Assembly (NCBI RefSeq): GCF_021484805.1
Contig: NZ_CP090557.1
Span: 1,624,001-1,688,000 of the forward strand
Length of the DNA: 64,000 nt
Reading direction: 5' to 3'
Source: Tellurirhabdus bombi
GTDB taxonomy: Bacteria; Bacteroidota; Bacteroidia; Cytophagales; Spirosomataceae
The notes below the pieces were generated by a model. It was not told the DNA's origin, did no database searches, and worked only from the letters and a program-made list of their open reading frames with translations. A program made the translations under genes and the position numbers. Positions 387 through 16,081 of this stretch are shown here, in pieces (position 1 is the stretch's first letter; each line of letters begins with the position of its first letter).

Positions 387-3300
387 ATGGAAAATACTAC
401 AAAACGGTATTGGAGAGGACTTGAAGAACTGCGGAACGAAGAATCGTTTGTAAAGAACGCACATAAAGAGTTTTCTGATACCAATCTTGATAAACCTGCC
501 GAATCTGAAAGCATTGTCGACGGAATCGGTAGTGATCGTCGGGATTTCTTAAAAGTACTGGGTTTTGGTATGGCTGCTGTTTCTTTGGCTGCCTGCGATG
601 CGCCCGTAAGAAAAGCAATACCTTATATTAATAAGCCGGAAACTATATTTCCGGGAATTGCTGATTACTATGCTTCTACTTATAGTGAAGGTGGTGATTA
701 TGTGCCTGTTTTGGTGAAAACCCGTGAAGGACGACCCATCAAAATTGAAGGGAACACTTCATCAACAATTACTAAAGGAGGAACTTCAGCTCGGGTTCAG
801 GCGTCTGTATTGTCATTGTACGATATTGATAAACTAAAAGGACCTAAACGCGGCGAAGCTGATATTGACTGGAATACGGCGGATAAAGACATTTTGGCAT
901 TGCTTCAGCGGGGCGGCGCTATTCGAATCGTTTCTCCAACGATTTTGAGTCCTTCTACAAAAGCCGTTATTGCCTCATTTATTGCTAAATATCCAACAGC
1001 TACTCACATTCAGTACGATGCTAACTCAGTATCTGGGCTGATTCAGGCTAACCAGCTATCATTCAATCAGGCAGTTGTGCCTTCTTATGATTTTAGCAAA
1101 GCCAGAACGATTGTAAGCATTGGAGCTGATTTCTTAGGAACTTGGATTGCTCCTTTGGAGTATACAGATCAATACGTAGCAACTCGTAAAGTAGGTGCTA
1201 ATGCTGGTAACAGAACTGATATGTCAAGACATTATCAGTTTGAGACGGGCTTGTCCATGACGGGCTCGAACGCCGATTACCGGTCTGCTATCAAACCTTC
1301 ACAAGAAGGTTTAGTTGTGGCTAGCCTCTATAATAAAGTTGCTGCGAAGTTAGGTGGTGCTGCTATCAGCGCACCTGCTATTGACATTCCTTACTTAGAC
1401 AAAGCAGCCACTGATCTAGCGGCCTCTCGGGGTGCTTCATTGGTTGTATCAGGTTCAAATGATCCAAACGTCCAAGTACTTGTTAATGCACTGAATAGTC
1501 TGCTCAACAGCTATGGGTCTACCATTGACCTGAACCGTCCGGCTTATTATCGTCAAGGGAATGATGCTGCAATGAACCGGTTCGTTGACGAAGTTAAGGG
1601 TGGACAAGTTCAGGGGGTTATTTTCTACGGAGCTAATCCCGTATATGATCACCCACGGGGTACAGAATTAAAAGATGCCTTATCACGAGTAGCCTTATCT
1701 GTATCTTTTTCAGATCGGGCTGACGAGACTGCATCACTTTGTAAATATATTTGCCCTACACCGCATTATCTGGAGTCTTGGGATGATGCTTCGCCAAAAG
1801 CAGGTTTTTATAGCCTGACACAGCCAACCATTAATTTGATTTTCAAAACTCGTCAACCACAAGTTTCTTTGTTGAAATGGGCTGGTCTGAACACGAGTTA
1901 TGAAGCTCAAATTAAGAATTACTGGCGTTCAACGGTTTATCCGCAGGCAGGTAGCAGCCTTTCATTTGAACAATTTTGGGTTCAAGCACTGCATGAAGGT
2001 GTTTTCGAATCAAAAACTGCTCAAGCTGCATCTGGAGCTACATTTAATCAAGCTGCTGTTGCAACCGCTGCCGCTGGTGTAGCCAGACGGTATAAAGCAA
2101 ATGCTACTGGCTTCGAGCTTTCGTTGTACGAAAAAGTAAGCTTAGGAACTGGCGCCATGGCTAATAACCCGTGGCTTCAGGAAATGCCAGATCCAGTATC
2201 GAAGGCTTGCTGGGATAACTACGCTTGTATTTCACAAAAGACAGCAAAAGAACTTGGCGTTAAGCAGAATGATCTGGTTTCTATTGAAGTGACTGGTAAA
2301 CCTGCTGTTGAATTGCCAGTTTTAGTTCAACCAGGACAAGCCGACAATACGGTATCAGTTGCGATTGGTTACGGACGCGAAAAGGCTGGAAAATCAGCTA
2401 ACGGCGTAGGTAAAAATGCATATAGCTTAGCATCAGTTACGAATGGTTATTTGACATTTGCAGCAGATGTAAAAGTTAGCAAAGCTAGTGGAAGCCGCGA
2501 GATTGCGCAGACACAAACCCACGATACTGTAATGGGGCGTCGGGCAGTTCTCCAAGAGACGGTATTAGCTGCTTACAAGAAAGACAAAAAAGCGGGTCGC
2601 TACTTCCCGAAAGTTGAAACTTCGGAAGGGGCGGTTAAGCCTACTGATATTAGCTTGTGGGATGGTTACGCAAAGCCAAACCATTCGTGGGGAATGGTTA
2701 TTGACCTGAACTCTTGTACGGGTTGTGGTGCTTGTGTTATTGGTTGCCAGGCTGAAAATAACATTCCGGTTGTTGGTCGCCAGGAGGTAATCAACCGACG
2801 TGAAATGCACTGGATTCGTATTGACCGCTATTATAGCAGCGATGCAGATCCTGAAGATTGGAAAGCGATTGAGATTGCTTCGGCAAACCCAGAGGTTACT
2901 TTCCAACCGATGCTGTGCCAACACTGTTCAAATGCTCCGTGTGAGACCGTATGTCCAGTATTAGCAACAACACACAGCACAGAAGGGTTAAACCAAATGA
3001 CGTACAACCGTTGTATTGGTACGCGTTATTGCGCGAACAACTGCCCATACAAAGTGCGTCGTTTCAACTGGTTTAAGTACTTTGATAACGATAACTTCGA
3101 TTACCATTATAACAACGATCTTGGTAAAATGGTAATTAACCCGGATGTGACTGTTCGCTCACGGGGGGTTATTGAAAAATGTTCATTCTGTGTACAACGG
3201 ATTCAGGATGGTAAACTGGTTGCTAAGAAAGAGCGCAGAAGACCATATCCAGATGAAATTCAGGTAGCTTGTGCACAAGCATGTCCTACAGGTGGTATTG

Positions 3301-3488
3301 TTTTTGGTGACATGAACGATCCAGAAAGCTCAATTTCTAAACTGCTGAAAGAAGAGAAAGAAGGACGGGCCTTCCAGGTTCTGGAGGAAATCAACGTACG
3401 GCCACAAATTTCTTATCTGACGAAAATTCGGAATAAGGATGAAGCACCAAAACCAGTTGCCCATCAGGAACCTAAGCAAGAAGCTTAA
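387..3488 (+). CDS. actB: ActB, fused molybdopterin-oxidoreductase-like and iron-sulfur subunit of alternative complex III
   Basis: At 1033 residues this is the fused B1-B2 form. A twin-arginine signal (RRDFLKVLGFG, residues 51-61) runs into a lipobox-like Cys70, predicting Tat export of the folded protein and possible lipidation. Residues about 80-740 resemble the molybdopterin oxidoreductase fold, which in this family is known to lack the cofactor. Residues about 770-1000 form an NrfC/PsrB-like ferredoxin domain with four Cys clusters (CTGCGACVIGC, CQHCSNAPCETVC, CIGTRYCANNC, and CSFC with ACAQAC). It carries electrons from quinol oxidation in the NrfD-like subunits toward the hemes of ActA and ActE. 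Confidence 0.95.
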   Translation: MENTTKRYWRGLEELRNEESFVKNAHKEFSDTNLDKPAESESIVDGIGSDRRDFLKVLGFGMAAVSLAACDAPVRKAIPYINKPETIFPGIADYYASTYSEGGDYVPVLVKTREGRPIKIEGNTSSTITKGGTSARVQASVLSLYDIDKLKGPKRGEADIDWNTADKDILALLQRGGAIRIVSPTILSPSTKAVIASFIAKYPTATHIQYDANSVSGLIQANQLSFNQAVVPSYDFSKARTIVSIGADFLGTWIAPLEYTDQYVATRKVGANAGNRTDMSRHYQFETGLSMTGSNADYRSAIKPSQEGLVVASLYNKVAAKLGGAAISAPAIDIPYLDKAATDLAASRGASLVVSGSNDPNVQVLVNALNSLLNSYGSTIDLNRPAYYRQGNDAAMNRFVDEVKGGQVQGVIFYGANPVYDHPRGTELKDALSRVALSVSFSDRADETASLCKYICPTPHYLESWDDASPKAGFYSLTQPTINLIFKTRQPQVSLLKWAGLNTSYEAQIKNYWRSTVYPQAGSSLSFEQFWVQALHEGVFESKTAQAASGATFNQAAVATAAAGVARRYKANATGFELSLYEKVSLGTGAMANNPWLQEMPDPVSKACWDNYACISQKTAKELGVKQNDLVSIEVTGKPAVELPVLVQPGQADNTVSVAIGYGREKAGKSANGVGKNAYSLASVTNGYLTFAADVKVSKASGSREIAQTQTHDTVMGRRAVLQETVLAAYKKDKKAGRYFPKVETSEGAVKPTDISLWDGYAKPNHSWGMVIDLNSCTGCGACVIGCQAENNIPVVGRQEVINRREMHWIRIDRYYSSDADPEDWKAIEIASANPEVTFQPMLCQHCSNAPCETVCPVLATTHSTEGLNQMTYNRCIGTRYCANNCPYKVRRFNWFKYFDNDNFDYHYNNDLGKMVINPDVTVRSRGVIEKCSFCVQRIQDGKLVAKKERRRPYPDEIQVACAQACPTGGIVFGDMNDPESSISKLLKEEKEGRAFQVLEEINVRPQISYLTKIRNKDEAPKPVAHQEPKQEA

Positions 3489-3549
3489 ATAACTTCTTTA
3501 GATTCAGATTAGTAATTAGTCAATGTACAGCATTCAACTTTTATAACCC

Positions 3550-4977
<1,428 letters not shown>

Positions 4978-5020
4978 GATTATAGTCAAGACAGAATTAA
5001 CAGAATAGTATCGTACCAGA

Positions 5021-5551
5021 ATGGCTGATTTTCATAATAGCAAATTTCTCGTAGGCGTCTATGACGACGATGATGTCGTACTGAAGGCGGTTAAAGATGT
5101 AAAGGAGGCAGGCGTACGAATCCACGAAGTTTATACACCTTTTCCCATTCACGGATTAGATGTAGCGTTGGGCCATCCGCGTACCCGCATTGGTATTGCA
5201 GCCTTCTTGTTTGGCTTAACAGGCTTTTTGTGTATGGTGGCATTGACCCTATACACCATGAAGTTTGATTGGCCAATGGTTATCGGTGGTAAGGATCCAT
5301 ATGCATATCCGGCTTATATACCGGTTATGTTCGAGTTTACAGTTCTTTTTACAGCTCTTGGAATGGTAGGCACATTCTTAGTTTCCAATGGCTTGGGACC
5401 AACTGTTAAACCACTTATGTTTGACCTTCGTAGCACAGACAATAAATTTGTGATGGCCATTGATTTGGAGAAAAACAAATTGTCTGAAGCTGAAATATCT
5501 AGTGTTTTAAAAAGCTCCGGTGCTGCCGAAGTGAATATCAAACAATTCTAA
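5021..5551 (+). CDS. actD: ActD, DUF3341 membrane subunit of alternative complex III
   Basis: A 176-residue protein with a soluble N-terminal part (residues 1-55, including YTPFPIHGLD, a typical DUF3341 segment) and two membrane helices at about 60-80 and 105-125, then a short soluble tail. In solved complexes of this family ActD is a small two-helix subunit on the membrane arm. Its place between actC and actE matches the standard actABCDEF order. It has no redox motif, so a structural role is expected. Confidence 0.93.
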   Translation: MADFHNSKFLVGVYDDDDVVLKAVKDVKEAGVRIHEVYTPFPIHGLDVALGHPRTRIGIAAFLFGLTGFLCMVALTLYTMKFDWPMVIGGKDPYAYPAYIPVMFEFTVLFTALGMVGTFLVSNGLGPTVKPLMFDLRSTDNKFVMAIDLEKNKLSEAEISSVLKSSGAAEVNIKQF

Positions 5552-5566
5552 TTACGATTGACACAC

Positions 5567-6178
5567 ATGAAATTCATGCGTCTGAACCGTTCGCTTTTAG
5601 TGATGGCGGCAGCCCTGCTGACTTTCTCGGCGTGTAAGCGTGGTCATGATAGTACGGGGACTGAATATGCCCCAAATATGTATGATCCCGTCGGATACGA
5701 GCCGTATAAGCAAATAGACGGATTTAAAAATCCATATAATAAGGATGGTAGTAACCTATGGACGCCTGTACGTGGTACAGTCTCTCGCCGTAATTACCAT
5801 ACTACGTTTACTGATAGCACGGGTCGGTCAGTAAAAGACTTAATGGTTTACAACATCAACCCAGATAGCATTACTATCTCAGAACGCGTACTAACCAACC
5901 CGGTTGCCTTAAGCGAAAAGACTTTAGCTGAAGGAAAAGAATACTATGCGCGTTACTGCCAGCACTGTCATGGTGAAGGTGGCAAGGGAGATGGACCTGT
6001 AGCGAAACAATACAAAGGGGTTCCAATCTATTCGGGTTTAGCACCGATGAATGATGGACATATTTTCCACGTCATAACACACGGAAAAGGTCGGATGTGG
6101 CCACATGGTTCACAAATGACACCGGAAGAAAGATGGAAGATTGTTCACTACGTTCAAAAGCTGCAAAACGAAGGATAA
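5567..6178 (+). CDS. actE: ActE, monoheme cytochrome c lipoprotein of alternative complex III
   Basis: The ATG at 5567 is preferred to the upstream TTG at 5558 because it begins a clean lipoprotein signal (charged MKFMRLNR, hydrophobic core, LTFSAC). The mature part carries one heme site, CQHCH, followed by GEGGKGDGP, which is typical of class I cytochrome c, and later Met residues that can serve as the second iron ligand. About 203 residues. In the family it delivers electrons from ActA to the oxidase or to soluble cytochrome c. It starts 15 bases after actD. Confidence 0.93.
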   Translation: MKFMRLNRSLLVMAAALLTFSACKRGHDSTGTEYAPNMYDPVGYEPYKQIDGFKNPYNKDGSNLWTPVRGTVSRRNYHTTFTDSTGRSVKDLMVYNINPDSITISERVLTNPVALSEKTLAEGKEYYARYCQHCHGEGGKGDGPVAKQYKGVPIYSGLAPMNDGHIFHVITHGKGRMWPHGSQMTPEERWKIVHYVQKLQNEG

Positions 6179-6212
6179 TTACAGCAAGTGCATTATAATT
6201 CATAGAAAGGTA

Positions 6213-7514
6213 ATGGCTCATACTCATTCTATACCGTCGTTAGACGAACAATTTGAATTTACAGCGGATAGCAAGCGGCGGCTAATTATCGGTGGTGTAG
6301 CAGGTGTATTGCTTGTTGCCCTCGGTGCTTATCTGTTAGCCTCTGGTGCAGGTGATCATGGGCATGCAGAAGTAGCCCACGAGCATGCAGCGGCAGAAGG
6401 GGGACATCATGCTTTTAAATGGACAACCCGTTTATGGGCAAATGTTTGGTTAAACTGCGTTTATTTTACAGGAGCATCTGTAATTGGGATGTTCTTTATG
6501 TCATATAACTATTTAGCTCAAGCTGGATGGACAGCCGTTTTCAAACGCGTTCCAGAAGCTTTGCCGGCTTTCTTACCAATAGCAGGGATTTTGATGCTAG
6601 TTACTTTCTTCGTAGCTGGTCACGATTTATTCCACTGGACGCATGAGGGGTTATATGATCCAAACAGCCCAGAATATGATCGTGTTATTGCCGGAAAGCA
6701 CGGCTTCCTGAATACACCTTTCTTTGTTGGTCGTATCGTTTTCTATTTTGTAGCTTGGTACTTCCTGTGGAAGAAACTACGGGACTTTTCGCTGCAAGAA
6801 GATTTACATGGCGGAACAGAATACTATGAAAAAAGCATCAAGTTTGGCGTTGCCTTCTTACTGGTATTTGGCGTAACCTCTTCAACATCGGCCTGGGATT
6901 TTGTGATGTCAATTGATACGCACTGGTTCTCTACAATGTTTGGATGGTATACACTGGCAAGCTGGCATGTAACAGGCTTGGCTATCATTACGCTAGTTGT
7001 TGTTACATTACGGGAACGTGGTTATTTACAAGCGGTTAACGAAAGCCACCTGCATGACTTAGGCAAGTTTATGTTTGCCTTTAGTATTTTCTGGACTTAC
7101 GTTTGGTTTGCGCAGTTTATGCTTATTTACTATGCTAACCTGCCAGAGGAAACGATTTATTACCGGGAGCGGTTTAGTGGTTATGGAGGGATCTATCAGG
7201 CTCCGTTTTTCGTTAATCTTTTGTTAAACTTTGTTGTTCCCTTTCTAGTATTGATGCCAAGAGACTCAAAGCGGACGCCAATTATTTTGAAAGTTGCTGC
7301 TTGGTCGATTATAGTAGGTCATTACTTTGACTTCTGGGAAAATATTATGCCAGGAACGGTCGGCGAGCATGGTGGTTTTGGACCAATAGAATTTGGAATG
7401 ATCCTAATTTTTGCAAGTGCTTTTATCTGGTCAGTATCGTCTCAGTTGACCAAAGGAAACTTGATCGCAAAAAATCATCCAATGCTCGAAGAATCATTGC
7501 ATCACGATATTTAG
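6213..7514 (+). CDS. actF: ActF, polytopic membrane subunit of alternative complex III
   Basis: The start is taken at the ATG at 6213 (MAHTHSIPSLDEQ); the longer frame from 6141 would overlap actE and adds a non-conserved-looking sequence. About 433 residues with around ten hydrophobic segments. ActF is a paralogue of ActC, and the two sit back to back in the membrane arm. A His-rich stretch (HGHAEVAHEHAAAEGGHH, residues about 48-65) lies between the first two helices and could bind metal or simply be a flexible linker. It is followed 36 bases later by coxB, which links complex III and oxidase genes in one transcript. Confidence 0.93.
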   Translation: MAHTHSIPSLDEQFEFTADSKRRLIIGGVAGVLLVALGAYLLASGAGDHGHAEVAHEHAAAEGGHHAFKWTTRLWANVWLNCVYFTGASVIGMFFMSYNYLAQAGWTAVFKRVPEALPAFLPIAGILMLVTFFVAGHDLFHWTHEGLYDPNSPEYDRVIAGKHGFLNTPFFVGRIVFYFVAWYFLWKKLRDFSLQEDLHGGTEYYEKSIKFGVAFLLVFGVTSSTSAWDFVMSIDTHWFSTMFGWYTLASWHVTGLAIITLVVVTLRERGYLQAVNESHLHDLGKFMFAFSIFWTYVWFAQFMLIYYANLPEETIYYRERFSGYGGIYQAPFFVNLLLNFVVPFLVLMPRDSKRTPIILKVAAWSIIVGHYFDFWENIMPGTVGEHGGFGPIEFGMILIFASAFIWSVSSQLTKGNLIAKNHPMLEESLHHDI

Positions 7515-7550: not shown

Positions 7551-8651
7551 ATGGTTTACGTTGTAGGACTTTTGTCGCTAGTATTCCTGGTACTGACCAT
7601 CGTAGTACTAACGCGATTGACCTCTCTATTAAAAGGTCTGAATGGCAATCAAACGGAGACTCGGGTTGGCTTGAGTAATCGAATCAATGCCGTTTTATTC
7701 TTAGCTTTTCTAGTACTAGGCACAATAGCGGCTGCATGGTCATTTATTCATGCTTCTGACTTCTTTTTACCAGAAGCATCAACGCCCCATGGACGTCGGA
7801 CTGATTCCTTGTTCTGGCTGGTAATGGCTGTAATTACAGCTGCATTCGTTGTGACCAATACGTTGCTATTCTTCTTTGCCTATAAGTATCAGTATCGGGA
7901 AGGTCATAAAGCAACATACTATCCTGAAAATCACAAGTTAGAACTGATTTGGACGGTTATACCAGCTGTAGTAATGGCATTGCTTGTATTCACAGGCTGG
8001 CGTGCTTGGCGAGATATTACATCTGAGGCACCAGCAGATGCTGTTGTAATTGAGCTAATGGGAAAACAGTTTGACTGGACAGCCCGTTATGCCGGTGTTG
8101 ATGATAACAAGTTAGGCAATTATAATTATAAGCTGATCGATCCAGGTAACACAATGGGTATCGATTTATCGGATGAAGCAGCTTTCGATGACTTTACTGA
8201 TAATACGCTACATATTCCAGTTGGAAAGCCGGTGCTTTTGAAGATTCGTGCTCGTGATGTTTTGCACAGTGTGTTTCTGCCTCACCTACGGGTTAAGATG
8301 GATGCTGTTCCAGGAATGCCAACTCGCTTTTGGTTTATTGCTGACAAAACAACAGACCAAATGAAAGCTGAGACAGGTAATCCTAACTTCAAATATGAAT
8401 TGGCTTGTACAGAAGTTTGTGGACAGGGTCACTTCTCAATGAAGATGAACGTTGTTGTTGAAGATGAGTATGCATTTAACAAATGGGTTTCGGAACACAA
8501 AACGTGGCTTTCACAAAACCCAGATTATGCTTCTCGCATACCTGCTAATCTAAAAAGCAAAGCAGCAAAATATTTGCCGCAGGATGGAGCAGCTAGTGAA
8601 GCTGATACGACAGGAACCGCGACTGCAACTGCAAGCGTTTCAATGCGATAA
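7551..8651 (+). CDS. coxB: Cytochrome c oxidase subunit II (CuA-containing)
   Basis: A 366-residue subunit II. The CuA site is intact: His239 (LHSVFLPH) and the cluster C286-TEV-C290-GQG-H294-FS-M297. It accepts electrons from ActE or cytochrome c and passes them to heme a in subunit I. The N-terminus is unusual: hydrophobic segments at about 1-22, 46-65, 84-110 and 130-150, so there are probably three or four helices rather than the two of classical subunit II. The tail after residue 325 is Ala/Thr-rich and low in complexity. No heme c motif is present, so this is not a caa3 type. Confidence 0.95.
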   Translation: MVYVVGLLSLVFLVLTIVVLTRLTSLLKGLNGNQTETRVGLSNRINAVLFLAFLVLGTIAAAWSFIHASDFFLPEASTPHGRRTDSLFWLVMAVITAAFVVTNTLLFFFAYKYQYREGHKATYYPENHKLELIWTVIPAVVMALLVFTGWRAWRDITSEAPADAVVIELMGKQFDWTARYAGVDDNKLGNYNYKLIDPGNTMGIDLSDEAAFDDFTDNTLHIPVGKPVLLKIRARDVLHSVFLPHLRVKMDAVPGMPTRFWFIADKTTDQMKAETGNPNFKYELACTEVCGQGHFSMKMNVVVEDEYAFNKWVSEHKTWLSQNPDYASRIPANLKSKAAKYLPQDGAASEADTTGTATATASVSMR

Positions 8652-8684
8652 TTTATTTGAACAAGATTAGACTGTACCTGATAT

Positions 8685-10565
8685 ATGGCAACTGTTGAAC
8701 CGCACGTAACGTCGATTGCTCATCACGAAGAGCATGACCACCACGAGCATCAAAGCTTCATTAGAACCTATATTTTTTCAGAAGATCACAAGACAATTGC
8801 AAAGCAATACATGCTGTCTGGTATCTTCTGGGCAATTATTGGGGCTTCATTATCCATCATATTCCGTTTACAACTGGGTTTCCCAGACATGAAATTGGAA
8901 TGGCTTCGCCCAATTCTAGGAAACTGGATTGATGAAAGCGGTCGTTTGGATAAAGAGTTTTACCTAGCCTTAGTGACTATGCATGGAACCATTATGGTGT
9001 TCTTTGTATTAACAGCTGGCTTAAGTGGTACGTTTTCAAACTTCCTGATTCCATTACAGATAGGTGCCCGTGATATGGCATCAGGGTTTTTGAACATGTT
9101 ATCTTATTGGTTCTTTTTCTTGTCTAGCGTGATCATGTTTGTTTCGCTCTTCATTGAAACAGGACCAGCTTCTGGTGGTTGGGTAATTTATCCGCCATTG
9201 AGTGCATTACCAAAAGCAATGTCAGGGTCTGGCTTGGGAATGTCCATGTGGCTTACCAGTATGGCTTTGTTCATTGTTTCCCAACTCTTAGGAGGAATCA
9301 ATTACATCACAACTGTAATTAACCTTCGTACGCGGGGAATGTCTTTTAGTAAATTGCCACTACCAATCTGGGCATTCTTCCTAACGGCTGTTCTAGGGTT
9401 AATTTCATTCCCAGTATTATTGTCTGCTGCCTTGTTGTTGATCTTTGACCGTAGCTTCGGAACAAGTTTCTATTTATCTGAGATCTACATTGGTGGTGAA
9501 GCCTTGCCAAATATGGGTGGTAGCCCCGTATTATTCCAGCACTTATTCTGGTTCTTAGGACACCCAGAAGTGTATATCGTACTACTGCCAGCTCTAGGTA
9601 TTACGTCTGAAATTATTGCTACGAACTCGCGGAAGCCGATCTTTGGTTACCGGGCGATGATCGCGTCAATGATTGGAATTGCCTTCTTAGCCTTTATCGT
9701 ATGGGCGCACCATATGTTTGTTTCAGGAATGAACCCCTTCCTGGGATCAATCTTTATGTTCTTGACGTTGATTATTGCTGTACCATCAGCGGTGAAAGCG
9801 TTCAATTACATTACGACACTATGGCGAGGTAATATCATCTTTACGCCAGCAATGCTATTTTCAATCGGTCTGGTGTCCTTCTTTATCTCAGGTGGTCTAA
9901 CAGGGATCATTTTAGGGAACAGTGCTTTGGATATTCAATTACACGATACGTATTTCGTGGTTGCTCACTTCCACCTTGTAATGGGAGCTGCTTCAGCGTT
10001 TGGATTCCTGGCGGGTGTTTATCACTGGTTCCCTAAGTTCTTTGGTCGCATGATGAATGAGAAATTAGGATATATTCACTTCTGGTGTACGTTCATAGGA
10101 ATTTACTTGGTTTTCTTCCCGATGCACTATATTGGAATTGCTGGTTTCCCTCGTCGATACTATTCGTTTACTAGCTATGATGCTTTTAAAACGTTTGGCG
10201 ATTTGAATACGTTTGTGAGCTTAGCAGCTATCTTTACGTTTGGAGCTCAGTTCTTATTCCTAATCAATTTCTTCTATAGTATATTCAAAGGGCGTAAGGC
10301 CTCGGCTAACCCTTGGAACTCTAATACGCTGGAGTGGACAACGCCAGTAAAACCGGGTCATGGAAACTGGCCAGGCGAAATTCCAGCTGTTTATCGTTGG
10401 CCATACGATTATAGCAAGCCAGGTGCGCAGGGAGATTTCATTCCGCAAAACGTACCTTTTTCTCAAACTCCAGAGTCTAACCTGCCGCATGAAAATGCAC
10501 TGATTGCAATTGAGAAGGAGATTGAGGCGCAGAATTATAATGACCAATTCAAACAACCTCACTAA
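8685..10565 (+). CDS. coxA: Cytochrome c oxidase subunit I (heme-copper catalytic subunit)
   Basis: A 626-residue A-type heme-copper oxidase. Metal ligands are all present: His100 (HGTIMVFF, low-spin heme), His293 with Tyr297 (HPEVY, CuB and the cross-linked Tyr), His342-His343 (AHHMF, CuB), and His428/His430 (VAHFHLVMG, heme a3 and heme a). It reduces oxygen to water and pumps protons. A His/Glu-rich N-terminal stretch precedes the first helix at about residue 40. Its 3' end overlaps ctaA by 26 bases, so translation of the two is probably coupled. Confidence 0.97.
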   Translation: MATVEPHVTSIAHHEEHDHHEHQSFIRTYIFSEDHKTIAKQYMLSGIFWAIIGASLSIIFRLQLGFPDMKLEWLRPILGNWIDESGRLDKEFYLALVTMHGTIMVFFVLTAGLSGTFSNFLIPLQIGARDMASGFLNMLSYWFFFLSSVIMFVSLFIETGPASGGWVIYPPLSALPKAMSGSGLGMSMWLTSMALFIVSQLLGGINYITTVINLRTRGMSFSKLPLPIWAFFLTAVLGLISFPVLLSAALLLIFDRSFGTSFYLSEIYIGGEALPNMGGSPVLFQHLFWFLGHPEVYIVLLPALGITSEIIATNSRKPIFGYRAMIASMIGIAFLAFIVWAHHMFVSGMNPFLGSIFMFLTLIIAVPSAVKAFNYITTLWRGNIIFTPAMLFSIGLVSFFISGGLTGIILGNSALDIQLHDTYFVVAHFHLVMGAASAFGFLAGVYHWFPKFFGRMMNEKLGYIHFWCTFIGIYLVFFPMHYIGIAGFPRRYYSFTSYDAFKTFGDLNTFVSLAAIFTFGAQFLFLINFFYSIFKGRKASANPWNSNTLEWTTPVKPGHGNWPGEIPAVYRWPYDYSKPGAQGDFIPQNVPFSQTPESNLPHENALIAIEKEIEAQNYNDQFKQPH

Positions 10566-11559
10566 TACATCTGAACGCTTATTCCGGAGGCTGGCCCTTC
10601 TGACAGTAATTACCATTTACCTACTCATTGTAGCTGGTGGTATTGTCAGAAGCACTGGCTCCGGAATGGGTTGTCCAGACTGGCCGAAATGCTTTGGGAG
10701 TTGGGTTCCACCTACAACCTCATCACAGCTCCCCCCCAACTACGCTGAAATTTACGGGGCAAAACTAAAGGGCGAAGTTGTATTCAATGCAGCAAAAACC
10801 TGGACAGAATACATAAACCGTTTAGCGGGTGCTTTTTCTGGCTTGCTCGTATTTGCTACTCTACTTGCTTCAATTCGATTTTTGAAAACTGACCGAGCTA
10901 TCTTCTATGGTAGTTTGGTGGCATTTGTTCTAATAGGTGTAAACGGTTGGCTAGGAGCAAAAGTTGTATCAACTGAACTAGCTACATACATGGTAACCTT
11001 GCATATGCTGCTAGCAATCATAGTAGTATTTGCGCTTTTGTATGTTATGGTTCGTTCGAATGCAGAAGCCTATTCGAGCATTTCTAGTCAAATACCGACA
11101 ACAGCAATAAATAATGTCCTTTACTGGGTGATTGGGTTGTCAACCATACAGGTTGTTTTTGGAACCCAGGTTCGAGAAGCAATGGATGAAGTGATTGTGA
11201 GGATGGGAGAAGCAGGAAGAATGTATTGGATCGAACGTTTGGGCTTGCCATTCTATATTCATCGCTCCTTTTCAATAGTAGTATTCGGAGTCCATTTACT
11301 GTTAATTTATCGGCTTCGCAAATACAGCAAGCTGGATGCTAAACTATCCACTTGGGCTACCATTTTAGCCATTGCTGTAGCAGTAGAAATTTTAACGGGT
11401 ATTCTACTATCGTATTTAAGTGTTCCTGCTTTCGCACAACCTATACATTTAACAGTGGCTATTGTCATGTTAGGTGCACAATTTGTAATTTTGTTAATGA
11501 TCAATGCACAAACGTTCCTGAAAAATAAATCAGCCAACGCTCTTTCTTACTCTCATTAA
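10540..11559 (+). CDS. ctaA: Heme A synthase (COX15/CtaA family)
   Basis: The start is placed at the ATG at 10540 (MTNSNNLTNTSERLFRR), inside the end of coxA; the longer frame from 10504 would add an Arg-rich extension. 339 residues, about eight hydrophobic segments. Family marks include the extracytoplasmic Cys pair C45-x5-C51 (GCPDWPKC), the EYINR motif near residue 88, and His residues in helices (TLHMLLA, YIHRSF, PIHLTVA) that bind heme. It oxidises the C8 methyl of heme O to give heme A for the neighbouring oxidase. Confidence 0.95.
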   Translation: MTNSNNLTNTSERLFRRLALLTVITIYLLIVAGGIVRSTGSGMGCPDWPKCFGSWVPPTTSSQLPPNYAEIYGAKLKGEVVFNAAKTWTEYINRLAGAFSGLLVFATLLASIRFLKTDRAIFYGSLVAFVLIGVNGWLGAKVVSTELATYMVTLHMLLAIIVVFALLYVMVRSNAEAYSSISSQIPTTAINNVLYWVIGLSTIQVVFGTQVREAMDEVIVRMGEAGRMYWIERLGLPFYIHRSFSIVVFGVHLLLIYRLRKYSKLDAKLSTWATILAIAVAVEILTGILLSYLSVPAFAQPIHLTVAIVMLGAQFVILLMINAQTFLKNKSANALSYSH

Positions 11560-11562
11560 AGA

Positions 11563-12453
11563 ATGCAATCAGAAACAAATATTCTACAATCATTAACACT
11601 GTCTGACAAAGCAAAAGCGTATTCAGAGCTTTTGAAGTTTCGTCTTTCAATGTTCGTTGCCTTATCGGGAGGTTTCGGGTATAGTTTAGCCGTAAACGAT
11701 CTATCCTGGTATAAGTTAGTAATGCTCTTACTTGGATCATTAGCCATTACAGGAGCTGCTAACATCATCAATCAAATTATTGAAAAAGACAGTGATAAGC
11801 TAATGAAGCGTACTGCTAAACGCCCGCTACCGAGTGGACGTTTGAGTGTGCAGGAAGCTACTATTTTTGGTTTTATTCTGTTTGTAGTTGGATGCTATAT
11901 TTTCCTGGCTTTTTTTAATCTACGGGCATGTGCCTTATCAATCTTGTCCTTGCTTCTTTATGGCTTCGTATATACACCATTGAAAAAGGTGGGTCCGATT
12001 GCTGTATTTGTTGGGGCGCTACCGGGAGCATTTCCGCCCATGATTGGATGGATAGCAGCAACTAACCATTTTGGACTAGAGCCAGGTATTCTCTTCGCCA
12101 TTCAGTTTTTTTGGCAGTTCCCTCACTTCTGGGCCATTGCTTGGGTGGCAGATGAAGACTATAAACGTGCAGATATTAAGCTTTTGCCATCGGCAGGAGA
12201 AAAAAATATTGATACTGCTTTCCAAATCATGATTTACACCTTGTTCCTACTACCAGTAGGGTGGTTACCTTATGTAATGGGTATGACAGGGTTTAATTCA
12301 GCTATTATAGCTATGATTTTTGGAATCTTGTTTCTGGCGCAAACGTTTCATCTAATGAGACGATGTACAGACAAAGCAGCCTTACAAATTATGTTTGGAT
12401 CGTTCCTGTACCTTCCAGTGGTGCAGATCGCGTTTCTTTTGGATAAATTATAG
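11563..12453 (+). CDS. ctaB: Protoheme IX farnesyltransferase (heme O synthase)
   Basis: A 296-residue UbiA-superfamily prenyltransferase with about nine membrane helices. The Asp-rich, Mg-diphosphate-binding loops are visible: NQIIEKDSDKLMKRT near residue 67 and ADEDYKRADIKLLPS near 200. It attaches a farnesyl group to heme B to make heme O, the substrate of CtaA. The gene starts 3 bases after ctaA ends, so both heme A steps are encoded directly behind the catalytic oxidase subunit. Confidence 0.95.
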   Translation: MQSETNILQSLTLSDKAKAYSELLKFRLSMFVALSGGFGYSLAVNDLSWYKLVMLLLGSLAITGAANIINQIIEKDSDKLMKRTAKRPLPSGRLSVQEATIFGFILFVVGCYIFLAFFNLRACALSILSLLLYGFVYTPLKKVGPIAVFVGALPGAFPPMIGWIAATNHFGLEPGILFAIQFFWQFPHFWAIAWVADEDYKRADIKLLPSAGEKNIDTAFQIMIYTLFLLPVGWLPYVMGMTGFNSAIIAMIFGILFLAQTFHLMRRCTDKAALQIMFGSFLYLPVVQIAFLLDKL

Positions 12454-12462
12454 CAACAACTA

Positions 12463-13056
12463 ATGAGTGATTCAGTTAAAACATTAACCATGATTCAAGA
12501 AGAGCCCGAAGAGACGCTCTCTATGAATCCCAAAAAATTTACGCTCTGGCTATTTATCGTAAGCATACTTATGCTTTTCGCGTCGATGACAAGTGCGTAT
12601 TTGGTGAGGAGGGCTGAAGGAAACTGGCTGGAGTTTACGATTCCTGCTATTTTCAGCTATAGCACAGGAGTCCTGATTATCAGCAGTGCATCCATGCAAT
12701 GGGCTTACAATGCCGCAAAAAAAGACAATTTTGGCGTTTTGAAAACGGCAATTTCTATTACTTTTGTGTGCGGCTTACTCTTTCTGGTCATGCAATACTT
12801 AGGCTGGAGAGATTTGGTAGCTCAAAATGTGTACTTTGTTGGTAACCCTTCAGGTTCATTCATGTACGTATTTACCGGGCTACATGCCTTTCACTTAATC
12901 AGTGGTTTGTTTGTATTGCTATTCGCTTTACGGGCAGCATTTAACTTGAAAATCCATGCGAAAAATCTAACGCAGATTGAAATCGCAAATACCTATTGGC
13001 ATTTTCTAGATATTTTGTGGATTTATTTATTAGGCTTTTTATTGTACTTCAATTGA
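12463..13056 (+). CDS. Cytochrome c oxidase subunit III, short form (first of two)
   Basis: A 197-residue heme-copper oxidase subunit III-like protein with about five membrane helices. Typical segments are TGLHAFHLISGLFVLL (residues about 138-153) and YWHFLDILWIYLLGFL near the C-terminus, matching the YWHFVDxxW motif of the family. Subunit III stabilises subunit I and its proton uptake; it binds no metal. A second, longer subunit III gene follows 16 bases later, an arrangement seen in Bacteroidota. Whether both are in the same enzyme cannot be read from sequence. Confidence 0.92.
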   Translation: MSDSVKTLTMIQEEPEETLSMNPKKFTLWLFIVSILMLFASMTSAYLVRRAEGNWLEFTIPAIFSYSTGVLIISSASMQWAYNAAKKDNFGVLKTAISITFVCGLLFLVMQYLGWRDLVAQNVYFVGNPSGSFMYVFTGLHAFHLISGLFVLLFALRAAFNLKIHAKNLTQIEIANTYWHFLDILWIYLLGFLLYFN

Positions 13057-13072
13057 TTTAAAAGAATAGAGC

Positions 13073-13852
13073 ATGGCTGCTACGGTTACAACGGCGGAAA
13101 CTCCAGCATTCGACAAAAAGACCTGGATGGGTGGAGTGGAACCCATGAAAGCAAGTTACGGTAAGTTGATGATGTGGTTCTTCCTATTATCGGATACCTT
13201 TACATTCTCAGCTTTGCTGGTAACGTATGGACTAATCCGGTTTAGTTTCCCCGCTTACGATCCGGCCCTTCATGGTGAATTTCATTTTTCAAATTTGTAC
13301 TGGCCAATACCGGAAAAGGTTTATGCCTCATTGCCATTTTTGCATGGCGTAGATGCTCCGCTGGTATTTGTTGGGATCATGACATTTATCCTGATTTTCT
13401 CGTCAGTAACTATGGTACTTGCGGTAGAAGCAGGACATCGTCGGGATCGGGCAGCCGTTGAGAAATACATGCTCTGGACTATTATTGGTGGTATTACCTT
13501 CCTAGGAAGCCAAGCGTGGGAATGGAGCCACTTTATTCATGGTACCGATCAGGGTACTATCATGAAGGAGTATATAAATGGTGAATGGGTGTCGCATACG
13601 GTTTTTGGAGCGAACCTGGTAGAAAATCAATATGGTCCTGCTGCCTTTGCTGATCTGTTTTTCTTCATCACTGGCTTTCACGGAACACACGTTTTGTCAG
13701 GGGTTGTACTGAATATCCTGATCTTCTACCGGGCTTCAACTGGTTTATATGAGCGTCGTGGCCACTATGAGATGGTAGAGAAAGTAGGCTTGTATTGGCA
13801 CTTTGTTGATTTAGTGTGGGTATTTGTCTTTACGTTCTTCTATTTAGTATAA
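13073..13852 (+). CDS. coxC: Cytochrome c oxidase subunit III, long form (second of two)
   Basis: A 259-residue subunit III paralogue. It carries the family marks FFFITGFHGTHVLSGVVL (residues about 196-213) and LYWHFVDLVWVFVFTFFYL at the extreme C-terminus. Compared with the 197-residue copy just upstream it has an insertion of about 50 residues in the middle (around HGTDQGTIMKEYINGEW). The pair probably arose by an old duplication. It acts in the inner membrane as a structural partner of subunit I. Confidence 0.94.
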   Translation: MAATVTTAETPAFDKKTWMGGVEPMKASYGKLMMWFFLLSDTFTFSALLVTYGLIRFSFPAYDPALHGEFHFSNLYWPIPEKVYASLPFLHGVDAPLVFVGIMTFILIFSSVTMVLAVEAGHRRDRAAVEKYMLWTIIGGITFLGSQAWEWSHFIHGTDQGTIMKEYINGEWVSHTVFGANLVENQYGPAAFADLFFFITGFHGTHVLSGVVLNILIFYRASTGLYERRGHYEMVEKVGLYWHFVDLVWVFVFTFFYLV

Positions 13853-13873
13853 TCCGTAAGTTTTAGAAATATT

Positions 13874-14200
13874 ATGGCAGAGCATACATATCATCACGAG
13901 CACGAGCAGGGCGAAATTGCACCTCCGCAGACAAAAGGAATCTGGCGTACATTTTACATTTTGTCCGCAATCACAGCCCTTGAGTTTTTAATCGCCTTTA
14001 CAATACCAGCGGGTACACTGAAAATTGCGATCTTCATTGGATTGACAATTGTGAAAGCATTCTACATCGTTGGTGAGTTCATGCACTTAAAGCATGAAGT
14101 AAAGACGCTAATCTGGTCAGTTCTTCTACCTTGTATTTTTGTTGTTTGGCTATTACTTGCTTTATTAATGGAGGGTGGATCAATCTTCCAACTTAGATAA
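13874..14200 (+). CDS. Cytochrome c oxidase subunit IV family protein
   Basis: A 108-residue protein with a His/Glu-rich N-terminus (YHHEHEQGE) and three hydrophobic segments (about 25-45, 50-72 and 80-100). This matches the prokaryotic subunit IV (CyoD/CtaF-like) family, small accessory subunits of heme-copper oxidases. It contains EFMHLKHEVK between helices 2 and 3, a typical family segment. It lies 21 bases after subunit III and 2 bases before the SCO-like gene. Confidence 0.88.
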   Translation: MAEHTYHHEHEQGEIAPPQTKGIWRTFYILSAITALEFLIAFTIPAGTLKIAIFIGLTIVKAFYIVGEFMHLKHEVKTLIWSVLLPCIFVVWLLLALLMEGGSIFQLR

Positions 14201-14202
14201 AA

Positions 14203-14934
14203 ATGCAACAAATCATAAAAGCCGGAGCCCTCATCCTTGTGTTGGTGGTTCCGGCTTTAGTTTTTTTATTTCTGAGGTTTTTTGGGGAAAATCATTTTAG
14301 TCTGAAAACGTACTATCCGCTAACTAACCCTTCAACTGGGGATGTATTAGTGCGGGCTAGTCCGGATGCTGACTGGTGGGAGAGTCCAAAGGATACGGTT
14401 TTCTATACCGTTCCTTCTTATACCTTATCTGTTCCTCCAAAAGATTCAACATCAGGCAGACTGAAACTTAAAAGTACGAAAGACTTTAAGGATAAAATTG
14501 TAATTGTTTCATTCACCGGATCAGTTTGTGATCAAACTTGTTTACAGACCGCTGGGCAGATTTCTCGTATCCTGGATATTTTCAACAAAGAGTCTGAAAT
14601 TGTTGCTTTAACCTTAATGGATAGGCTGGGAGCTGCTCGTCCTTTGCAACACCAGTGGGGCAACATGCCAGACAAATGGACTTTAGGTCAGCCTACGCAC
14701 AAGTCTGTACAACGGGTAGCCGATTATGAGTTCAGATTTAATGAAAGGCCAATTATAAATCCTAAGAAAGAAACGTTTGCCTACAATGAAGGGTTTGTAT
14801 TAGTAGATAAAGAAGGACACATTAGAGGCTATTACAAAAGTACGGATAAAACAGATGTAGATCGGCTAATCCTGGAAATCCGGGTGTTACTCGATGTGTA
14901 TGCAAAAAATAACTTGACCAATGGCAACGCTTGA
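14203..14934 (+). CDS. SCO1/SenC-like, membrane-anchored copper/thiol protein
   Basis: 243 residues: one N-terminal membrane anchor (about 5-25) and a periplasmic thioredoxin-like domain. The SCO CxxxC copper/redox motif is present (C109-DQT-C113). The third copper ligand of canonical SCO, a His just before the strand ending in LVD, is not where expected: that region reads FAYNEGFVLVDKEGH, so a Tyr or Asn occupies the place and the nearest His (206) is about 12 residues later. SCO proteins deliver copper to, or reduce thiols of, the CuA site in CoxB. It overlaps the next gene by 14 bases. Confidence 0.85.
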   Translation: MQQIIKAGALILVLVVPALVFLFLRFFGENHFSLKTYYPLTNPSTGDVLVRASPDADWWESPKDTVFYTVPSYTLSVPPKDSTSGRLKLKSTKDFKDKIVIVSFTGSVCDQTCLQTAGQISRILDIFNKESEIVALTLMDRLGAARPLQHQWGNMPDKWTLGQPTHKSVQRVADYEFRFNERPIINPKKETFAYNEGFVLVDKEGHIRGYYKSTDKTDVDRLILEIRVLLDVYAKNNLTNGNA

Positions 14935-15463
14935 GTTAGAAAAAAAACAAAATATTGAGCGGCTCATAAATGTTCTAGCAGTGGCTATTCCAGTGGTAGT
15001 AGCTGTATTATTAGGCGTGCGACAAAAAATTGATCTGGGCGTTTGGACAACATCATTGCCGCATCTGAATGCTGGAATCAACTCCATTACTTCCGTAACA
15101 TTAATTCTAGGGCTTTACTTCATTAAACAGCGAAACGTAAATGCGCATCGAATAACGATGCTGATTTCATTTGTGCTAGGATCTCTTTTTCTGGTGAGTT
15201 ATGTATTGTACCACCTTTCGAATGAATCAACTCCTTTCGGAGGAGAAGGGTGGATTCGACCCGTATATTATTTCTTACTAGTCTCGCATATTCTATTATC
15301 AATTGTAGTCGTTTGGTTTGTACTGAGGGCTGTGTACTACGCACTTACTGAACAGTTTGCCCGGCATAAGGCTGTGGTTAAATGGGCGTATCCTATATGG
15401 CTGTATGTGAGCGTAACCGGCGTAGTTGTGTATTTTCTGATCAAGCCTTATTACAACCATTAA
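14921..15463 (+). CDS. DUF420 membrane protein, CtaM/YozB-like oxidase assembly factor
   Basis: A 180-residue protein with about five hydrophobic helices (around 15-30, 45-62, 74-96, 112-135 and 150-170). The layout fits DUF420. The characterised member CtaM/YozB of Firmicutes is needed to mature heme-copper oxidases. Its place at the end of the oxidase operon, overlapping the SCO-like gene by 14 bases, supports the same role here. Several helix-edge His residues (HLNAGINS, NAHRITML, LYHLSNES) could bind a metal or heme. Confidence 0.82.
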   Translation: MATLELEKKQNIERLINVLAVAIPVVVAVLLGVRQKIDLGVWTTSLPHLNAGINSITSVTLILGLYFIKQRNVNAHRITMLISFVLGSLFLVSYVLYHLSNESTPFGGEGWIRPVYYFLLVSHILLSIVVVWFVLRAVYYALTEQFARHKAVVKWAYPIWLYVSVTGVVVYFLIKPYYNH

Positions 15464-15474
15464 AAGAAAGCAGG

Positions 15475-15753
15475 ATGAAAGGTTGGCATAAGTTATTATT
15501 AGTAGGAGTTTTTGTTTTCTTGACCATAAACCAAGCAACGGCCCAATGTGCTATGTGCCGGGGAACGGTCGAGAGCACGATGAGTAATGGGCGCAACATG
15601 GTAGCCACAGGATTAAATTTTGGCATCTTGTACCTTTTGGCTGCGCCGTATTTAATTGTAACAGTTATTGCTTATCTCTGGTACCGAAACAGTAAAAAAG
15701 AACATGGCCAACGTATCGAAATCACAAGCCGTGTTAGAAGGGCGCTGTCCTAG
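15475..15753 (+). CDS. Small membrane protein with a periplasmic CxxC motif, unknown function
   Basis: 92 residues, starting at the ATG at 15475; the longer frame from 15382 lies inside the DUF420 gene. It has a signal peptide (MKGWHKLLLVGVFVFLTINQATAQ), then CAMC directly at the predicted mature N-terminus, then a single membrane helix (about 52-68, LYLLAAPYLIVTVIAYLWYR) and a short basic tail. I do not recognise the family. A secreted CxxC next to SCO and DUF420 genes suggests a copper- or thiol-handling assembly factor, but that is inference from position only. Its end overlaps the DUF983 gene by 50 bases. Confidence 0.75.
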   Translation: MKGWHKLLLVGVFVFLTINQATAQCAMCRGTVESTMSNGRNMVATGLNFGILYLLAAPYLIVTVIAYLWYRNSKKEHGQRIEITSRVRRALS

Positions 15754-16081
15754 ATGTAGACAAGGCAAAATTTTTAAGTATCCCTGGTATAAAATTGCCA
15801 AATTCGACAACATGCATGAGCATTGTCCTCACTGCAATTTACGATTTGAGATTGAGCCAGGTTATTTTTGGGGAGCTATGTACGTCAGTTATATGTTATC
15901 CGGCGGGTTAGCGTTGCTGATTGGATTTACTCTGTTCTATGGATTTAATGATCCAAGCTCCTGGATTTATTTAGGTATTATTTGTCCAGCCCTGGTTTTA
16001 ATAACACCCATTAATTTCCGCATCTCTAGAATCGTTTGGTTACACTATGTTTCAGGTATAAGCTACGATCCCAGATTATAA
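15704..16081 (+). CDS. DUF983 zinc-ribbon membrane protein
   Basis: The ATG at 15704 gives 125 residues. The N-terminal part holds two CxxC pairs (CPRCRQGKIF and CPHCNLRFEIEPGYFWGAMYVS), the pattern of DUF983, followed by two membrane helices (about 65-85 and 90-108). Members often sit at the end of cytochrome oxidase operons, but the biochemical role is not established. It overlaps the preceding small gene by 50 bases in another frame, which suggests coupled translation. A terminator follows 20 bases later, so it is the last gene of the respiratory operon. Confidence 0.85.
   Translation: MANVSKSQAVLEGRCPRCRQGKIFKYPWYKIAKFDNMHEHCPHCNLRFEIEPGYFWGAMYVSYMLSGGLALLIGFTLFYGFNDPSSWIYLGIICPALVLITPINFRISRIVWLHYVSGISYDPRL

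Follow-up and report, generated by a model that had tools for sequence, protein, structure and literature searches.

A conserved CxxC membrane protein encoded with A-type cytochrome oxidase genes in Bacteroidota is a candidate oxidase biogenesis factor

To our knowledge, it is an open question how bacteria that have neither Cox11 nor PCuAC supply their cytochrome oxidases with copper. The question is raised by a short gene of Tellurirhabdus bombi that lies among oxidase genes in the 64,000-nucleotide stretch of DNA analyzed here (the window) and encodes a 92-residue protein of an unnamed family, which we call X. According to the consulted part of PMC9145763, further oxidase assembly proteins are expected and not yet identified. 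The initial annotation of the locus proposed that X is an unrecognized copper or thiol factor, and we asked how far homologues, gene order, and co-occurrence bear this out. The gene order in the window is COX2, COX1, CtaA, CtaB, COX3, COX3, COX4, SCO-like, DUF420, X, and DUF983, with the following features.

387..7514, + strand: alternative complex III genes (ActB to ActF), upstream of the oxidase cluster, from our reading of the translations only
7551..14200, + strand: COX2 (CuA motif CTEVCGQGHFSM), COX1, CtaA, CtaB, two COX3-like genes, and COX4; translations were read and the names used as search labels
14203..14934, + strand: SCO-like gene, with the CxxxC kept (CDQTC) and no His at the position of the canonical-SCO His; below the Pfam SCO cut-off
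14921..15463, + strand: DUF420 (CtaM-like), PF04238, E 5.5e-45 in Pfam; immediate upstream neighbor of X
15475..15753, + strand: X, 92 aa, with a signal peptide, CAMC, one membrane helix, and a basic tail, from the translation and homologues
15475..15543, + strand: signal peptide of X, residues 1-23, predicted cleavage between ATA and Q, from our reading of the sequence
15547..15558, + strand: CAMC motif codons of X (C25 to C28); of all columns in 58 homologues, the two Cys alone are invariant
15610..15684, + strand: membrane helix of X, approximately residues 46-70 (G-L-N-x-G-I-L-Y-L...P-Y...W-Y-R), from hydropathy, alignment, and model
15704..16081, + strand: DUF983, PF06170, E 6.8e-7 in Pfam; ATG at 15704, sharing 50 nt with the 3′ end of X

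The translation of 15475-15753 and its hydropathy agree with the initial annotation, which had described a protein of this length with a signal peptide, CAMC at the start of the mature chain, and one membrane helix. The N terminus is hydrophobic and ends in A-T-A, followed by Q-C-A-M-C, so that CAMC occupies residues 2-5 of the predicted mature chain. The signal peptide is probably cleaved, as far as the sequence can tell; the predicted site has A at -1 in 50 and Q at +1 in 56 of 58 homologues. Around 20 residues separate the N-terminal CxxC from the single membrane helix, the hydropathy maximum falling in 19-residue windows that start at residues 46-52, and a basic stretch follows (WYRNSKK), giving a mature protein of about 69 residues whose helix presumably runs N-out/C-in. 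The AlphaFold2 model consists of two helices with a pTM of 0.44 and is uninformative on function. The neighbors were correctly given as DUF420 and DUF983, but the frames overlap on the DUF983 side only, the end of DUF420 (15463) being separated by 11 nt from the ATG of X (15475). The DUF983 protein that overlaps X has two CxxC pairs of its own (CPRC and CPHC) ahead of its hydrophobic part.

X is far more than a chance reading frame, because 56 of 59 genomes, counting that of T. bombi, contain a match, because all 115 of the 115 homologues extracted carry the CxxC, and because DUF420 lies directly upstream on the same strand at 90 of these 115 loci. The three genomes without a match comprise two that are 63% and 88% complete and one of 1.1 Mb. 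The 115 loci (36 named and 79 from further searches) yield 114 sequences that are distinct in the mature part. The motif reads CAMC in 84 of the 115, the others having CSMC, CPMC, CSIC, CSQC, and more. For the alignment, 58 diverse members were picked by hand; L115 and L164, for which no start was found, and L143 were omitted, and many other loci were left unpicked. Its only invariant columns are the two Cys, which are conserved above any membrane residue, while Q24, N48, G50, I51, and P58 reach 90%. Counted from the motif to the C terminus, each of the 58 members contains two Cys and no more, 44 have no His there, and 43 have Met at the third motif position.

Searches of Pfam, NCBIfam, and PHROGs returned nothing above cut-off for X. 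Single scans of the 58 members against Pfam and NCBIfam gave scattered weak matches, any one family being hit by at most 3 of 58, and we read the NCBIfam rows for STEVOR and the Shiga-toxin B subunit (E 0.06-0.1) as chance matches to the signal peptide or helix. hhalign showed no homology between X and the other cluster proteins, tblastn of a plasmid collection with X and one divergent member found no match, an Rfam scan found none either, and promoter and terminator scans gave nothing useful. Among the literature matches listed, we recognized no description of X, most subscription journals being outside the scope of the search.

The surroundings of X are predominantly those of an oxidase. COX1, COX3, COX4, or CtaB lies within the fetched flank at 95 of the 115 loci, and DUF983 is the next gene at 26. 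Outside its own class, the phylum has divergent CPxC forms (ACPACK, ACPNCK, ACPLCQ), which follow SCO-DUF420, COX4-SCO, or COX3/COX4, and this synteny supports the X matches with weak E-values. At seven loci of other classes (L159, L160, L162, L164, L213, L214, and L217), X comes right after COX3 or COX4 with no DUF420 between them. One genome (G267) carries two X paralogues, one after DUF420 (L212) and the other after COX3 in a second oxidase cluster (L213). In a genome of just 0.49 Mb (G371, L234, 93% complete), COX2, COX1, COX3, COX4, DUF420, and X are kept together; no SCO, CtaA, or CtaB was seen in the fetched 12 kb around this cluster.

Homologues away from oxidase genes, which the initial annotation had named as evidence against its reading, do exist in the literal sense. 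No cox gene is nearby at 20 of the 115 loci, some of which are contig ends and ten of which belong to family f23, where the six displayed X loci stand among unrelated genes. However, COX3 and DUF420 were found elsewhere in the 14 of these genomes that were examined for them (all ten of f23, G060, G099, G136, and G214), so the link with the oxidase survives as co-occurrence, X persisting in f23 with both genes when unlinked.

A sample of 217 genomes of the same class showed this co-occurrence directly, X being an unnamed protein present in 193 of them and nearly always found with COX3: both were found in 192, neither in 17, COX3 only in 7, and X only in a single genome that is 70% complete (G528). 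The 193 genomes scored as positive have a best E of ≤3.5e-13; at E 0.01 the tally is 198, and genomes with an X E-value above 5e-4 (G383, G447, G453, G481, and G482) were scored as absent. Four of the seven COX3-positive genomes without X (G395, G426, G453, G462, G472, G489, and G499) are at most 87% complete. In G462 the contig ends at DUF420, G453 and G489 have DUF420 without X after it, and in G472 and G499 the cox cluster follows another order and contains neither DUF420 nor X. A cox cluster in a different order, with a CuA-type COX2 and without DUF420 or X, was seen in family f121 (L219 and L220).

Four genera (g220, g276, g211, and g245) each contain a genome with both X and COX3 and one with neither. 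Two genomes, G377 and G437, keep DUF420 while both X and COX3 are missing, so the distribution of X matches that of the oxidase and not simply that of DUF420. A search of 29 selected genomes for FixO (cbb3) found six that match it and have no COX3, and X is missing from all six; FixO is full-length in G070 and G410 and partial in G383, G417, G437, and G447, and DUF420 is present in G437 and missing from the other five. In a sample of 296 genomes across the phylum, DUF420 was found in 149, COX3 in 221, and X in 72 at E 0.001; at E 0.01, X reaches 90, the weakest of which are probably chance. One match, G295 (L163), a 423-aa frame aligned through its helix only, was dropped as a false positive. 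Of the genomes in this sample, 73 belong to the same class; 65 of them carry all of X, DUF420, and COX3, and the other 8 carry none of the three. Many genomes of other classes have DUF420 and COX3 and no detectable X, so X is not universally needed. Linkage to and co-occurrence with an A-type oxidase, and not with cbb3 alone, as looked for in an A-type oxidase assembly factor, were thus found for X, with exceptions, although the co-occurrence is partly expected from linkage in one operon and the sampled genomes are related.

Neither Cox11 nor PCuAC had any match in the T. bombi genome and 58 relatives, the 14 control genomes giving one and three matches, respectively, while SCO was found in 58 of the 59 and in 6 of the 14 controls. 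The CuA Cys pair is present in 43 of 43 COX2 sequences, three of which come from loci without X, and the full CxExCGxxHxxM pattern in 39. What stands of the copper or thiol factor proposed at the outset is therefore an unrecognized family with a constant CxxC that follows a CuA-type oxidase in a set of 59 genomes without Cox11 and PCuAC, whereas its copper or thiol chemistry, its partner, and the step that it serves are what we infer.

The initial annotation also suggested that X may compensate for the altered SCO two genes upstream. The operon SCO does appear, from its sequences, to be decaying: many Cytophagales relatives have lost its CxxxC and/or His, and X retains its Cys there. However, among the 98 loci with an SCO-like gene and X, the window included, X adjoins an SCO with both CxxxC and His at 65, the rest being 28 without CxxxC (two of them doubtful, L126 through an alignment gap and L032 through a Cx4C) and 5 partial ones, including that of the window; the CxxC of X is present at all 98, which are the 100 loci examined minus L218 and L219, where SCO is present and X missing. 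The T. bombi genome also encodes a canonical SCO lipoprotein (CPTICP and His) at C1:2876000-2884000 (L226), 1.2 Mb from the oxidase cluster, so X need not replace SCO, and we consider compensation for a lost SCO copper site quite improbable. Two SCO-like genes, of which as a rule one is canonical and the other lacks the site, occur at all 29 loci of family f25, which we take to be Flavobacteriaceae.

In the main rival to an assembly factor, X would belong to the oxidase itself, or to an ACIII-oxidase supercomplex, as a small structural subunit similar to COX4, and its CxxC would form a structural disulfide. The tight linkage of X to subunit genes fits such a subunit equally well as an assembly factor, and its single-helix architecture and the seven loci directly after COX3 or COX4 point in the same direction. 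On the other hand, the usual neighbor of X is the assembly-type gene DUF420, its Cys pair is better conserved than its membrane residues, and a sequence search of solved structures gave no credible match, a Bacteroidota aa3/caa3 oxidase not being established among them; overall, we judge a structural role unlikely, though it deserves serious consideration. It is similarly doubtful that X is a pure thiol-disulfide partner that reduces the cysteines of SCO or CuA and carries no copper. The middle residues of the motif vary (CAMC, CSIC, CPMC, CSQC, and others), which is as compatible with redox activity as with metal binding, and COX2 keeps its CuA Cys pair in all 43 sequences, but the two-helix model shows no thioredoxin fold, no electron donor is visible, and Met occupies the third motif position in most members. 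Least probable, to the point of being hardly credible, is a CutF-like nascent-chain copper sensor whose own translation would control the next gene. X is indeed a small exported Cys-motif protein in an operon, its frame overlaps the downstream gene, and CutF-like proteins are reported in Bacteroidota in the consulted part of PMC9973294. Nevertheless, none of the 58 members has PP in the last 15 residues, the downstream gene is not conserved (DUF983 at 26 of 115 loci), the membrane helix is, and scanning the 58 members against Pfam gave no match to DUF2946, to which CutF belongs.

We therefore somewhat favor the reading that X is a dedicated biogenesis factor for the CuA-containing A-type (aa3/caa3) cytochrome oxidases of Bacteroidota; it would act alongside CtaM and SCO, with a dithiol that handles Cu(I) or thiols. 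An assembly factor for Cu(I) or thiols is the best reading because of the constant exported dithiol, the strict pairing with the oxidase in the class, the adjacency to CtaM, and the lack of Cox11 and PCuAC in the relatives. Once the signal peptide is cut, X would be a short periplasmic peptide with a single-helix anchor, and its dithiol would sit at the extreme N terminus, some 20 residues away from the membrane. The Cys pair would most likely ferry Cu(I) from the DUF420/CtaM step to SCO or straight to the oxidase (CuA or CuB); in a close variant, it would keep the Cys of SCO or CuA reduced. CtaM of B. subtilis has been proposed as a copper exporter for Sco, as stated in excerpts of PMC13344008.

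DUF420, the upstream neighbor of X, was compared with other oxidase proteins. Its 111 sequences share four conserved His (H76, H98, H123, and H149; 92-100%) and no conserved Cys, and its model is confident (pLDDT 94.5). In a Foldseek search with this model, rows 1-13 are oxidase chains, most of them named COX3, with a probability of 0.96-1.0 and E-values of 0.05-0.5, none being <0.001. hhalign of DUF420 against COX3 gave 89.5-92.7% (E 4e-7 to 2e-6), compared with ≤16% against COX1, COX2, CtaA, CtaB, COX4, SCO, DUF983, and X, and the DUF420 Pfam model, below its own cut-off, matches the COX3 gene of G426 (E 8.8e-4). In contrast, when the DUF420 alignment served as a profile for searching PDB sequences, no COX3 chain was found at E up to 10, and COX3 is not among the rows of a Pfam scan of the DUF420 protein of the window at E up to 1. 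VIA-align gave a Z of 9-11 for DUF420 against COX3, but designed helical bundles score equally, so we based the relation on profile comparison and the Foldseek ranking. By these two lines, and against the Pfam and PDB profile searches, DUF420/CtaM may be a paralogue of subunit III (COX3), which would provide a structural hypothesis for CtaM, a protein whose role is unsettled. An alternative proposal, that DUF420 is the root of the haem A synthase CtaA (PMC8239418, consulted in part), is disputed in the accessible portion of PMC12808453, and the 9.9% obtained by hhalign for DUF420 against CtaA lends no support to that link.

More speculatively, and with a chance that we regard as small, DUF420/CtaM and X may act together as a metallation module and so stand in for Cox11 in Bacteroidota. 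In this reading, CtaM, as a paralogue of subunit III with four conserved His, would dock on subunit I and hold the place of COX3; X, as its one-helix dithiol partner, would pass Cu(I) into CuB (or CuA) before COX3 arrives. A gene-deletion system and an aa3 respiration assay have been published for F. johnsoniae, as described in the consulted part of PMC8552683.

Assignment of X to several known classes was rejected. It is not a c-type cytochrome (CxxCH), the residue after C28 being R, K, T, or A in 56 of 58 members and R in the window. A thioredoxin-like or TlpA-type protein is contradicted by the approximately 17 residues from CxxC to helix, which are too few, by the lack of a Pfam match, and by the two-helix AlphaFold2 model, low as its pTM is. 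Cox11/CtaG and PCuAC are in the Pfam rows of neither X nor the 58 members, and SCO1/SenC is rejected for want of an SCO1-SenC Pfam match and by a CxxC in place of CxxxC without a conserved His.

Comparison with the known systems places X beside them rather than within them. Cox11/CtaG and PCuAC, which serve CuB/CuA loading according to the part of PMC9145763 consulted, would share that step with the proposed X and have no match in the 59 genomes. The CutF-like (DUF2946) sensors, as described in the consulted part of PMC9973294, resemble X in being short exported proteins with a Cys motif, but X lacks their C-terminal PP motif and has a membrane helix. CtaM, on which aa3/caa3 activity depends in S. 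aureus and B. subtilis according to the consulted part of PMC9145763, shares the gene cluster with X and differs in its four or five helices, its conserved His, and its lack of conserved Cys and of homology to X. Finally, like X, the chaperones of the SCO1/SenC class have a periplasmic Cys pair and are encoded in the same cluster; they have a thioredoxin fold with CxxxC and His, whereas X presents its CxxC, without a conserved His, on a mature chain of about 69 residues.
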